Shown here: positions 2,181-31,432 of the stretch, one piece after another
Numbering within the stretch: position 1 is the first letter of the stretch
Layout of the letters: each line of letters starts with the position of its first letter
Assembly (NCBI GenBank): GCA_030691625.1
Contig: JAUYDX010000047.1
Coordinates: forward strand, 1-40,151
Reading direction: 5' to 3'
Source of the DNA: Candidatus Omnitrophota bacterium
GTDB lineage: Bacteria > Omnitrophota > Gorgyraeia > Gorgyraeales > Gorgyraeaceae
DNA: 40,151 nt
Notes under the pieces: generated by a model
Databases searched by the model: none
What the model was told of the DNA's origin: nothing
The model's input: the letters and a program-made list of their open reading frames with translations, nothing else
Translations under genes and position numbers: made by a program

Positions 2181-2225
2181 CTTATACCCAGGTACAATTG
2201 ATTACATTCTGAATTCCTTCATAAT
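2181..2225 (+). promoter_or_regulatory. Repeated promoter cassette, copy P1
   Basis: CTTATACCCAGGTACAATTGATT-16 bp-CATAAT; matches three other copies in the window with identical spacing. Confidence 0.75.
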
Positions 2226-2716: not shown

Positions 2717-2950
2717 ATGAAAAAACTGACAGGGGTATTTCTTCTGTTAATATTTTTAAGCGGATGCGCGGTTACCGCGTCTTCAGGCACGCGGACCGAG
2801 TATGAAGATAAAATGAAAACAATAGAACAAGACTACAGAGAGGGGAAAATAACCAAGGAAGAGTATACCCAGCTCAAGAATCAAGCTAGTCAGCAGGGAG
2901 AGGTTGGCCGGGAAACCGGCTCAACGGGTTCTGGTCAAAGATATCCTTAG
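2717..2950 (+). CDS. Small lipoprotein
   Basis: Lipobox LIFLSGC; C-terminal YREGKITKEEYTQLKNQ resembles a SHOCT-like motif. Confidence 0.6.
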   Translation: MKKLTGVFLLLIFLSGCAVTASSGTRTEYEDKMKTIEQDYREGKITKEEYTQLKNQASQQGEVGRETGSTGSGQRYP

Positions 2951-7380: not shown

Positions 7381-7408
7381 TTGACAACTTTTTTATTTTT
7401 AGTAAAAT
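7381..7408 (+). promoter_or_regulatory. Sigma70-like promoter upstream of the HK/FixJ pair
   Basis: TTGACA-16 bp-TAAAAT about 70 bp upstream of the 7478 ORF. Confidence 0.5.
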
Positions 7409-7477: not shown

Positions 7478-8785
7478 ATGAAAATGACAAAGAAAAATAA
7501 AACTAAAAAGTCCTTATCGGAAAATAAAGTCCGAAACGGGAAACGCGCGCGTCTTGAAAAGATAGTAGCCGGTTTGCGTAAAAATCGCAGCGGTTTGAAA
7601 GATAAAATCCGGCAGCAAACCCATGAGTTAAAGGTAAAAAATGGAAAATTGAGAAATGGGATAAAGCAACAGATGCGGTCAAAGGAGCAGACGCACATCC
7701 ATACTAAAGCTATGGAATCTGCTGTTGACGGTATCTTTATTATTGATGCCCAAAAGCCCAATTTTCCTGTTATCTACTCCAACAGATCATTTCAGAAGAT
7801 GACTGGTTACGCGAAAAAGGAAATCCTGGGCCGGGATTATTTCTTACTGCATGGAGCTGGCGCCGATCCCCGCATCATTGAAAAAATAAAAAACGCGATA
7901 CATCATAATAAGTCTTTTCACGGAGAGGTACTCAGTTTTCAAAAGGATAATAAAAAATACTGGAATTTACTGCGCATTACGCCGGTGCATGATAATAGCG
8001 GCGCGATCACTCATTATACGGGGATCCAGACAGATGTTACCTTAATACAACAGAGGGATTTAGAGATTCAAGAACAGCGCGAGGAGCTTTTGCATGTCAC
8101 CAGGGTGGGAAAGCTCGCGGAATTTGTCTCGTCCCTGGCTCATGAGATCAGCCAGCCTCTTACGGCTATTCTCTCCTACGCCCAGGCTGGCCAGCGCATG
8201 CTCGGAGACAGGGATCCTGAACTGCAGAAGATCCTATCGTACATCGCTGATGATGACCAGCGGGCGGGCGAGGTTATCCGGCGGCTAAGGTCACTATTGA
8301 AAAAGGGTAAGCCGGTATTTGAGCTTCTCGATATCAGCACCCTTATTAATGAAACCATTGTGCTCATGGCGACCGATGCCACCGTGAGGAACAGTATCAT
8401 TAAAACCGAATTAGGTACGGATCTTCCGCGAATCCTTGGCGACCGGATACAATTACAGCAGGTTCTTCTGAATCTCATCAGTAACAGTTTAGACGCGATG
8501 GAGGATAGCAAAAATTCCCGCGAGATCTTGATTCGCGCGTCGCGTAAAGATACCAACATGATTATCGTGGAGGTGAAGGATTCAGGATGCGGTATTTCAG
8601 AGGATAACATGAAAAAGATCTTTAAACACTTTTTTACCAGTAAGTCTGACGGCTTGGGTATGGGATTGTCTATCAGCCGTTCTATTATTGAAGCCCATGG
8701 CGGCCGCCTGGAAGCTAAGAATAATCCCGGCGGCGGGGCAATTTTTTATTTTATTATTCCTATCGCCAAAAAGGACGCATCATGA
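7478..8785 (+). CDS. PAS-domain sensor histidine kinase (FixL-like)
   Basis: PAS region DGIFIIDAQKPNFPVIYSNRSFQKMTGYAKKEILGRDYF; H-box SLAHEISQPLTAILSYAQ; N-box LLNLISNSLDAM; G-box GLGMGLSISRSII. Confidence 0.92.
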   Translation: MKMTKKNKTKKSLSENKVRNGKRARLEKIVAGLRKNRSGLKDKIRQQTHELKVKNGKLRNGIKQQMRSKEQTHIHTKAMESAVDGIFIIDAQKPNFPVIYSNRSFQKMTGYAKKEILGRDYFLLHGAGADPRIIEKIKNAIHHNKSFHGEVLSFQKDNKKYWNLLRITPVHDNSGAITHYTGIQTDVTLIQQRDLEIQEQREELLHVTRVGKLAEFVSSLAHEISQPLTAILSYAQAGQRMLGDRDPELQKILSYIADDDQRAGEVIRRLRSLLKKGKPVFELLDISTLINETIVLMATDATVRNSIIKTELGTDLPRILGDRIQLQQVLLNLISNSLDAMEDSKNSREILIRASRKDTNMIIVEVKDSGCGISEDNMKKIFKHFFTSKSDGLGMGLSISRSIIEAHGGRLEAKNNPGGGAIFYFIIPIAKKDAS

Positions 8786-9408
8786 CTAGTCTCAAGCCGA
8801 TCATTTACGTTGTAGATGATGACGCTTCTATCCGCAGGTCACTCTCTTTACTGTTAAAATCGCACGGGTTTAAGGTTGAGGCGTTTATGGCCGCAGCGGA
8901 CTTTCTGGCGTTCAAGCACCTTAAATTGCCGTCGTGCCTGGTCTTGGATGTCCAGATGCCGGATATCGACGGCATTGCTCTCCAGGACGCCATGGCGCGG
9001 CAAAAACTTATCATCCCGATAGTTTTTATTACCGGACACGGGAATATCCCCATGAGCGTAAAAGCGATGAAGGCAGGGGCCATAGATTTTCTACCCAAAC
9101 CGTTCACTAAAAAAGAACTTCTGGATGCCATTGAGCGCGCCATCGCGAAAAACAAAACCCACAACAAGGAAGAAGCAGAAATAAACAGGATTAAACGGCG
9201 CATCAAGACGCTCTCTCCCAGAGAGCTTGAGGTTTTCCGTTTGGTGGCAAGCGGCATGCTGAGTAAACAGATCGCATTCAAGCGGGGGACCGCGCTCCAA
9301 ACGATCAAAGTTCACCGCAGCCGGGTCATGCAGAAAATGCAGGCTAAAACCGTAACAGAACTTATCCATTTAGCCCAAAAAGCGGGCTTAGTTTCCTCCC
9401 AGAGCTGA
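8782..9408 (+). CDS. FixJ/NarL-type response regulator with LuxR-type HTH
   Basis: IYVVDDDASIRRSL...CLVLDVQMPDIDGI...FLPKPF and SPRELEVFRLVASGMLSKQIA...TIKVHRSRVMQKMQA; ATGA overlap with HK. Confidence 0.93.
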   Translation: MTSLKPIIYVVDDDASIRRSLSLLLKSHGFKVEAFMAAADFLAFKHLKLPSCLVLDVQMPDIDGIALQDAMARQKLIIPIVFITGHGNIPMSVKAMKAGAIDFLPKPFTKKELLDAIERAIAKNKTHNKEEAEINRIKRRIKTLSPRELEVFRLVASGMLSKQIAFKRGTALQTIKVHRSRVMQKMQAKTVTELIHLAQKAGLVSSQS

Positions 9409-9452
9409 TTTCAAAGACAAATTTTCCACACGATACCGTAAAATCCCAGGAT

Positions 9453-9495
9453 TATACCTCAGTTCAATTGATTTAAATTATATTGGTTCTAAAAT
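9453..9495 (+). promoter_or_regulatory. Repeated promoter cassette, copy P2
   Basis: TATACCTCAGTTCAATTGATT-16 bp-TAAAAT; upstream ACCGTAAAATCCCAGGA matches P1. Confidence 0.72.
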
Positions 9496-11132: not shown

Positions 11133-11159
11133 CCAGCCGGCCCTGAAAAATCCAAAGGT

Positions 11160-11202
11160 TATACCCAAGTTCAATTGATTTAATTACCACGGCTCCTATA
11201 AT
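11160..11202 (+). promoter_or_regulatory. Repeated promoter cassette, copy P3
   Basis: TATACCCAAGTTCAATTGATT-16 bp-TATAAT; the -10 ends 6 nt before ATG 11209. Confidence 0.8.
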
Positions 11203-11696: not shown

Positions 11697-12692
11697 ATGA
11701 AATTACAACATATGTTCAGATTAGGGATGATTTTGTTGGGCGTGACAGGTTTTGTCGTTGTGGAAGGTTGTAGCAGTTCGCTTTGCAGCAGGAGGGCTGG
11801 TCTTGTTGAAGGCGGTACCTCTAATGTTAGTAACTGCGCTGGTGAACGCGCTGACCTTGTCGGCGCGCGTGGTCCTGCTGGTTCTGTTGGCCCTCAAGGG
11901 GAACGGGGTTTAACCGGACCCAAAGGCGCATCTGGTGTTGCTTTAAGAGGTGTGCGTGGTGAAATGGGACCTACGGGTCCTGCGGGTGAACGAGGCCTTA
12001 CTGGTTCAAGAGGGCCGATAGGTGATGTTGCGAGAGGTCCTGTAGGCGTAGCCGGACCGCGTGGTGATAGAGGTCAGCAAGGTCAAGTTGGTATAAGGGG
12101 AGAACAAGGGGATAGTTCAGCTGGTTTTGCCGGCGCAAGGGGTCCTGTTGGTTCTCAAGGTGTAAGGGGTCCTGTTGGAGAAGCGGGCGTTAAAGGTCCA
12201 ACTTTGTACGGCCCACAAGGTCCTGCTGGTTATGAAGGTTCTTCAGGTGAACAGGGAACGATCGGAGGACAAGGTTCTAAAGGTAATATTACGGCTGGTA
12301 TCGCTGGTCCAGTTGGTCCTTCAGGATTATCAGGATCTGTAGGCAGCATGGGAGCGACTGGTGGTCAGGGCGTTGCAGGCGCTATTTGTTACTGGAATCT
12401 TTATAGGGAATTCAATTTCTATTCTAATGATACCAGTCTTAGTTCTGCAGACATGAAAAGCGTGAGCGAAATTGCGGATTATTTAAACAGAAACCCATCG
12501 TTACGGCTCGGAATTGATGGCACCGCAGTTAGTTCAGGAGATCAAAATATAAATGATCTTCGTGTCAACGCGATTCGCACCGCATTGATCAATGCCGGTG
12601 TGTCACCAGATGAGATCAGTACGGGCGTGGTGATAGACAACAAGGATTTTAGGCGCAAGGGACGAGTAGCCGTGCTTTTTACCACCGACTGA
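11697..12692 (+). CDS. Lipoprotein with collagen-like Gly-X-Y repeats and C-terminal OmpA-like domain
   Basis: VEGC lipobox-like; GPAGSVGPQGERGLTGPKGAS... Gly-X-Y triplets; C-terminal REFNFYSNDTSLSSADMKSVSEIADYLNRNPSLRLGIDG...NDLRVNAIRTALINAGVSPDEI. Confidence 0.8.
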   Translation: MKLQHMFRLGMILLGVTGFVVVEGCSSSLCSRRAGLVEGGTSNVSNCAGERADLVGARGPAGSVGPQGERGLTGPKGASGVALRGVRGEMGPTGPAGERGLTGSRGPIGDVARGPVGVAGPRGDRGQQGQVGIRGEQGDSSAGFAGARGPVGSQGVRGPVGEAGVKGPTLYGPQGPAGYEGSSGEQGTIGGQGSKGNITAGIAGPVGPSGLSGSVGSMGATGGQGVAGAICYWNLYREFNFYSNDTSLSSADMKSVSEIADYLNRNPSLRLGIDGTAVSSGDQNINDLRVNAIRTALINAGVSPDEISTGVVIDNKDFRRKGRVAVLFTTD

Positions 12693-22419: not shown

Positions 22420-22429
22420 GATTGTTGCA

Positions 22430-22468
22430 CCCAGGTACAATTGATTTAATTTTGACCTGCTCTATAAT
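22430..22468 (+). promoter_or_regulatory. Repeated promoter cassette, copy P4
   Basis: CACCCAGGTACAATTGATT-16 bp-TATAAT upstream of the 22490 ORF. Confidence 0.8.
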
Positions 22469-31332: not shown

Positions 31333-31432
31333 ATCCTCTCCGATAATAGCAAACCATGAGTAATCATGGGGCGCAAAACCAAGGGTCCGCCACCACTTAA
31401 AGTGGTGGCGAGATAGCCGAGTTGCCAAAGAG
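31333..31432 (+). ncRNA. Cyclic di-GMP-I (GEMM-I) riboswitch aptamer
   Basis: AGCAAACCATGAGTAATCATGGGGCGCAAAACCAAGGGTCCGCCACCACTTAAAGTGGTGGCGAGATAGCCGAGTTGCC matches the GEMM-I layout: GCAAACC, P2 hairpin, GG.CGCAAA.CC, P3 hairpin, AGC.G.GTTGCC. Confidence 0.87.

Follow-up and report, generated by a model that had tools for sequence, protein, structure and literature searches.

A 40,151-nt stretch of a contig from a Candidatus Omnitrophota bacterium (the window) contains four near-identical promoter-like elements, P1-P4, located upstream of genes of different kinds. This raises the question of whether they belong to one regulon and which protein controls them. The original prediction considered them to be under one activator, perhaps the FixJ/LuxR-type regulator encoded in the same window. 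According to our analysis, P1-P4 are probably (with a probability of about 0.8) sigma70-type promoters of a single regulon, which would be activated from a class II position by the FixLJ-like system encoded at 7478-9408.

Promoters and Genes of the Window

All four copies, with their 16-bp spacers, were found at the predicted positions (Table 1). The pattern ACCYMRGTWCAATTGATT has four exact matches in the window; when up to three mismatches are allowed, there are five matches, whereas 0.42 would be expected and none of the shuffles gave as many. The motif ACCCARGTWCA, previously noticed next to the −35 hexamer, is indeed shared by the copies; however, the conserved unit is larger and represents an 18-bp palindrome (dyad) that overlaps the −35. 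The downstream genes encode a receiver (P1), a PAS kinase (P2), and an exported protein (P4), as had been proposed, whereas the expected FixJ-type product behind P3 turned out to be a single-domain receiver and not a full FixJ protein.

Table 1. Promoters and genes of the window discussed in the text.
Feature	Position	Strand	Details
P1	2181-2225	+	dyad 2181-2198, −35 TTGATT 2198-2203, −10 CATAAT 2220-2225
Receiver gene behind P1	ORF from 2224 or 2236, stop 2685	+	Shine-Dalgarno and ATG at 2308
Lipoprotein gene after the P1 receiver	2717-2950	+	
Promoter of the kinase-regulator operon	7381-7408	+	near-consensus housekeeping TTGACA-N16-TAAAAT, read by eye
FixL-like PAS histidine kinase	7478-8785	+	4-bp overlap with the regulator gene
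FixJ-type response regulator	8782-9408	+	receiver and LuxR/GerE HTH, 208 aa (Pfam, NCBIfam)
P2	9451-9495	+	dyad 9451-9468, −35 9468-9473, −10 TAAAAT 9490-9495
First gene behind P2	9507-10739	+	PAS histidine kinase (Pfam)
Second gene behind P2	10752-11132	+	single-domain receiver (Pfam)
P3	11158-11202	+	dyad 11158-11175, −35 11175-11180, −10 TATAAT 11197-11202
Gene behind P3	11209-11598	+	single-domain receiver (Pfam); ATG 11209 is the predicted +1 (probably leaderless)
Gene after the P3 receiver	11697-12692	+	protein with collagen-like repeat and OmpA-like part
P4	22424-22468	+	dyad 22424-22441 (left half GTTGCACC), −35 22441-22446, −10 TATAAT 22463-22468
Gene behind P4	22490-22879	+	exported 129-aa protein, Shine-Dalgarno leader

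The P1 receiver gene has its own Shine-Dalgarno sequence and start codon; therefore, the region 2226-2307 may be a leader. P2 starts approximately 43 bp 3' of the FixJ-type regulator gene. P4 is conserved in genome G004, and the product of the gene behind it had no match in the Pfam and NCBIfam searches. In other genomes, proteins similar to the collagen-OmpA protein that follows the P3 receiver (L121 cluster) are encoded behind a dyad promoter of their own. A tRNA-Gln gene (CTG) is located immediately 5' of P1, at 2048-2121. The window also contains a c-di-GMP-I riboswitch (31338-31429; Rfam, 58 bits) and genes for PilZ and GGDEF proteins.

In the genus, promoters of unrelated genes share an upstream block TTTTC..ACAC....GTAAAATCC, which in the window occupies positions 2140-2180 and 9410-9450. 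Possibly, it is an UP element or a second, weak regulator site.

The FixJ-Type Regulator and Its Proposed Partner Kinase

The product of gene 8782-9408 contains a receiver (Response_reg, 1.7e-27) and a LuxR-type HTH (GerE, 1.6e-15) according to Pfam, and it is the only protein with a DNA-binding domain among the window proteins scanned. The kinase encoded by the overlapping gene 7478-8785 is proposed to be its partner. The promoter of this operon does not contain the dyad.

By sequence, the PAS domain of the kinase is LOV-like. The LOV photoreceptor reading was rejected, as the photoactive cysteine is replaced both in the window protein, where its position reads GRDYFLLH, and in the orthologs with a readable motif, several of which have NYFL there.

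Palindrome and Promoter Consensus

The proposed operator is an 18-bp palindrome, RTTATACC-NN-GGTACAAT, overlapping the first base of the −35 hexamer (TTGATT). When mirror symmetry was analyzed in 161 sites, a single clear centre was found (0.668, versus 0.432 for the runner-up). The consensus derived from 132 well-formed sites in numerous genomes is (A/G)TTATACCYNRGTACAATTGATTYATTTT, a C-rich spacer end, TANAAT, and A..A.CA. The conserved unit thus also includes TTGATT, the T-rich start and C-rich end of the spacer, and CA at the start site. Consensus columns within the seed pattern are biased by the seed itself; outside it, the upstream flanking T and A, the downstream T run, the C-rich spacer end, and the start CA are still conserved. 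The spacing, which had been thought invariant and is so among the four window copies, varies elsewhere: the spacer is 16 bp long in 93 of these sites and 17 bp in the other 39.

With +1 placed 7 nt after the −10, the centre of the palindrome is at −42.5 for the 16-bp spacer and at −43.5 for the 17-bp spacer. The palindrome therefore has the features of a class II site, being two-fold symmetric, overlapping the −35, and centred near −42. The −10 takes the forms TATAAT, TAGAAT, or TAAAAT. The −35 differs by lineage (TTGATT, TTGACC, TTGTCT, TTGGCC, TTGTTT) and the palindrome remains unchanged; the latter is therefore an element distinct from the core promoter. The seventh base after the −10 is the A of an ATG in 40 of 157 sites, compared with about three sites for any other offset; this coincidence indirectly supports the predicted start site. 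A receiver gene or another gene often begins directly at the ATG at +1, and many of the mRNAs are therefore probably leaderless.

The placement of the operator also bears on the direction of control. It is unlikely that the FixJ-type regulator acts as a repressor, blocking the −35 at the dyad until a signal releases it. The overlap of the dyad with the first −35 base would suit such a blockade, but the distance from the dyad to the −10 is constant within 1 bp across families, and repressor sites usually tolerate more placements. The −35 itself is off-consensus (TTGATT), in contrast to the TTGACA of the regulator's own operon, which also argues against repression.

Association of the Site with the Regulator Gene

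To test the link between the palindrome and the FixJ-type regulator, 30 loci were analyzed that had been chosen solely by homology to the window regulator (64-100% identity, 11 families). Among the 29 loci with enough flanking sequence, 28 have a same-strand site 3' of the regulator gene, in 27 cases within approximately 160 bp; the farther exception is at 278. No opposite-strand sites were found behind the regulator in these loci. The gene downstream of the site varies, while the site is kept. L084 has a weak near site and a strong one at 518; G149 has no site directly behind the regulator, yet it has six elsewhere. Since the same palindrome promoter stands just behind a closely related regulator gene almost everywhere such a gene is present, this regulator very probably controls the promoters. 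Feedback is suggested by G072, G212, and G355, in which the kinase-regulator genes are themselves preceded by a further site.

Co-occurrence was analyzed across the class (384 genomes). Of the 44 genomes with a regulator match, 33 contain the motif with at most one mismatch, compared with 15 of the 340 genomes that have no such match (P ~1e-26, a value that overstates the evidence because genomes of one phylum share ancestry and are not independent). A full-length ortholog (64% or more) is encoded by 32 genomes; 28 of them contain the strict motif, and the remaining four contain the motif with an altered −35 (TTGACC, TTGTCT, TTGGCC).

Approximately 11 genomes have convincing sites, and the ortholog was not detected in them. 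In two, this can be explained by the regulator gene having been broken off or having decayed. In G004 (L034, 10268-10903), which retains three dyad promoters, the gene behind the kinase ends about 17 codons in, at a transposase-like sequence near the contig end. In G008 (L029, 160-310), just about the last 17 regulator codons are left; directly 3' of them is a dyad promoter, still intact, and then a short ORF (MKLEELQL). For the others, incompleteness of the bins, loss of the gene, or another regulator may be the explanation.

Paralogous Regulators and Altered Palindromes

Paralogues of the regulator with 40-55% identity often also have a palindrome behind the gene, but a different one, and the differences follow the start of the recognition helix. 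The helix ALQT (ALQTIKVH) corresponds to the palindrome ATTATACC; TEKT or SEKT corresponds to ATTGGACY-NN-RGTCCAAT, located in the same place behind the gene, and SIKT to ATGAGACC. An 18-bp palindrome with at least seven of eight pairs was found within 90 bp in six of ten paralogue loci, and five of these six palindromes contain the exact ACY-NN-RGT core. Separately, the paralogues of L227, L231, and L233, with the helix AEKTIRKH, have a common palindrome-like box GRCATTTGTCSCATA behind the gene.

The ATTGGACC-NN-GGTCCAAT version, with at most one mismatch, occurs in five of the 384 genomes, three of which (G029, G368, and G255) are carriers of the paralogue. The other two ATTGGACC matches lack promoter features and are apparently due to chance. 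This version is thus essentially limited to carriers of that paralogue. G029 and G368 have extra copies of it on other contigs, before genes that, judged by eye, encode an exported protein, a lipoprotein, and a flavodoxin-like protein.

These data bear on whether the dyad could belong to another DNA-binding protein, so that the FixJ-type regulator gene would simply lie next to one of that protein's targets. There are three other LuxR-type HTH proteins encoded in the genome, and the genomes with sites and no detected ortholog would agree with a different owner. We nevertheless regard this as even less likely than repression, as the site behind the regulator is preserved across 11 families though the next gene varies, and the altered palindromes track the altered recognition helices of the paralogues. 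The assignment of the promoters to one regulon under the window's own FixJ/LuxR-type regulator is thus supported in three ways: the motif and the regulator occur together, the site lies behind the regulator gene, and the palindrome changes along with the recognition helix in paralogues.

Distribution of the Motif and Its Target Genes

The source genome has a length of 1.44 Mb in 101 contigs. Beyond P1-P4, it contains two more copies of the dyad. The C47:36516 copy is full, with a 17-bp spacer; the C29:14806 copy is partial, consisting of the dyad and the upstream box, and has no convincing −10, because the likely start codon follows too closely. Another match with two mismatches is located inside a coding gene and was attributed to chance.

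Among 99 genomes around the source genome, the motif is present in the genus and a small number of other families; three-mismatch matches in the genus are mostly noise according to a reversed-pattern control. A search for the dyad, −35, and −10 together in one genome per species (84,980 species) revealed 83 stretches, nearly all from Omnitrophota, with one each labelled Auribacterota, UBP3, 'Elusimicrobia', and 'Sphingobacteriales'. The 'Sphingobacteriales' match (L135) and a single viral-contig match lack a proper −10 and are considered chance. Across these 84,980 species, the motif does not extend beyond Omnitrophota and near relatives. The enrichment anticipated for a wider motif scan was observed: the motif is strongly enriched, stands upstream of genes, and is conserved in 11 or more Omnitrophota families.

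A downstream gene could be assigned to 146 sites. Forty-five of these genes belong to one cluster of receiver-containing proteins and kinases. Other targets encode MlaE permeases (six), autotransporters (five), low-affinity iron permeases (four), and collagen-OmpA proteins (four). Single targets or small groups encode Fe/Mn superoxide dismutase, Ysc84, transglycosylase-associated, DUF3309, DUF1328, DUF883, BON, hemerythrin, DUF6515, DUF2959, PilZ, GGDEF, CheW, polysaccharide export, sugar transferase, and OmpA proteins; the stress-type families among them include superoxide dismutase, hemerythrin, BON, DUF883, and DUF3309. Many targets are receivers, kinases, or proteins of no known kind. Superoxide dismutase, BON, DUF883, transglycosylase-associated, and DUF3309 proteins are typical of general stress regulons elsewhere. 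A stress role of the regulon is suggested by this minority of targets, taken as raw counts.

It is very improbable that the copies arose by recent duplication of a single promoter cassette and have no common regulation. P1 and P2 do have upstream TAAAATCCCA and TTTTC boxes that also occur at other promoters in the genus; outside the genus, however, the flanks are not conserved, and the dyad, −35, and −10 persist before unrelated genes in many families. The least probable explanation is that an alternative sigma factor recognizes the motif, which would then not be an activator site: the −10 and −35 region lies within the conserved block and the genome encodes three clear sigma70-family proteins, but the −10 is of the plain type, the −35 varies where the dyad does not, and the two-fold palindrome is the best-conserved part.

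Proposed Mechanism and Its Significance

For activation by the FixLJ-like system, the following scheme can be proposed. The FixL-like kinase would phosphorylate the FixJ-type regulator, and a regulator dimer would then bind the palindrome at the edge of the non-consensus −35. The bound regulator may recruit RNA polymerase as a class II activator. The output would comprise receivers, sensor kinases, and stress-type and envelope or surface proteins, with many transcripts probably beginning at the A of the start codon. The sequences themselves show the motif and its two-fold symmetry, its constant position with respect to the −10, its linkage and co-variation with the regulator, and the classes of genes behind it; the binding, activation rather than repression, the signal, and the stress role are inferred.

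In the literature library searched, there was no paper on an Omnitrophota regulon; the operator and the regulon of this uncultured phylum are previously undescribed. We could find no earlier case of a defined operator and promoter with a predicted regulator in Omnitrophota, which has hardly any cultured member. The motif predicts start sites well enough for members of the regulon to be found from sequence alone, and the pairs of paralogues and palindromes represent a natural data set on the choice of operators by FixJ-family recognition helices. A broader suggestion is tentative, and the odds are somewhat against it: duplicated FixJ-type regulators, each with a palindrome readable from its recognition helix, might direct a phylum-wide Omnitrophota stress response through often leaderless sigma70 transcripts, in the role that alternative sigma factors have in other phyla.

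Comparison with Known Systems

StyR controls styrene degradation. Its structure (PDB 1yio) is the best solved-structure match to the window regulator; both have the same layout of a receiver and a LuxR-type HTH, that of the FixJ subfamily of NarL/FixJ proteins.

The system shares with FixLJ the adjacent genes of a PAS kinase and a FixJ-type regulator, which overlap in the window, and, in the promoter region, a palindromic operator approximately 18 bp long. The rhizobial FixJ sites GTAMGTAG and TAAGTAATTTCCCTTA are 18-bp imperfect palindromes (PMC4999443). The Omnitrophota palindrome is unlike either of them. The window proteins score below the cut-offs of the curated NCBIfam models (207 bits versus 255 for FixJ, 231 versus 850 for FixL). 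No fixK or nifA was found among the annotated targets; in this different phylum, the targets are receivers, stress-type genes, and envelope genes. Given the shared layout but differing cut-offs, operator, and targets, the system can be described as FixLJ-like in its working and not as FixLJ itself.

Some target families are common to the regulon and to the general stress regulons EcfG-PhyR, SigB, and RpoS. Unlike in those systems, specificity here would be provided not by an alternative sigma factor, but by the palindrome of a response regulator at a sigma70-type promoter.
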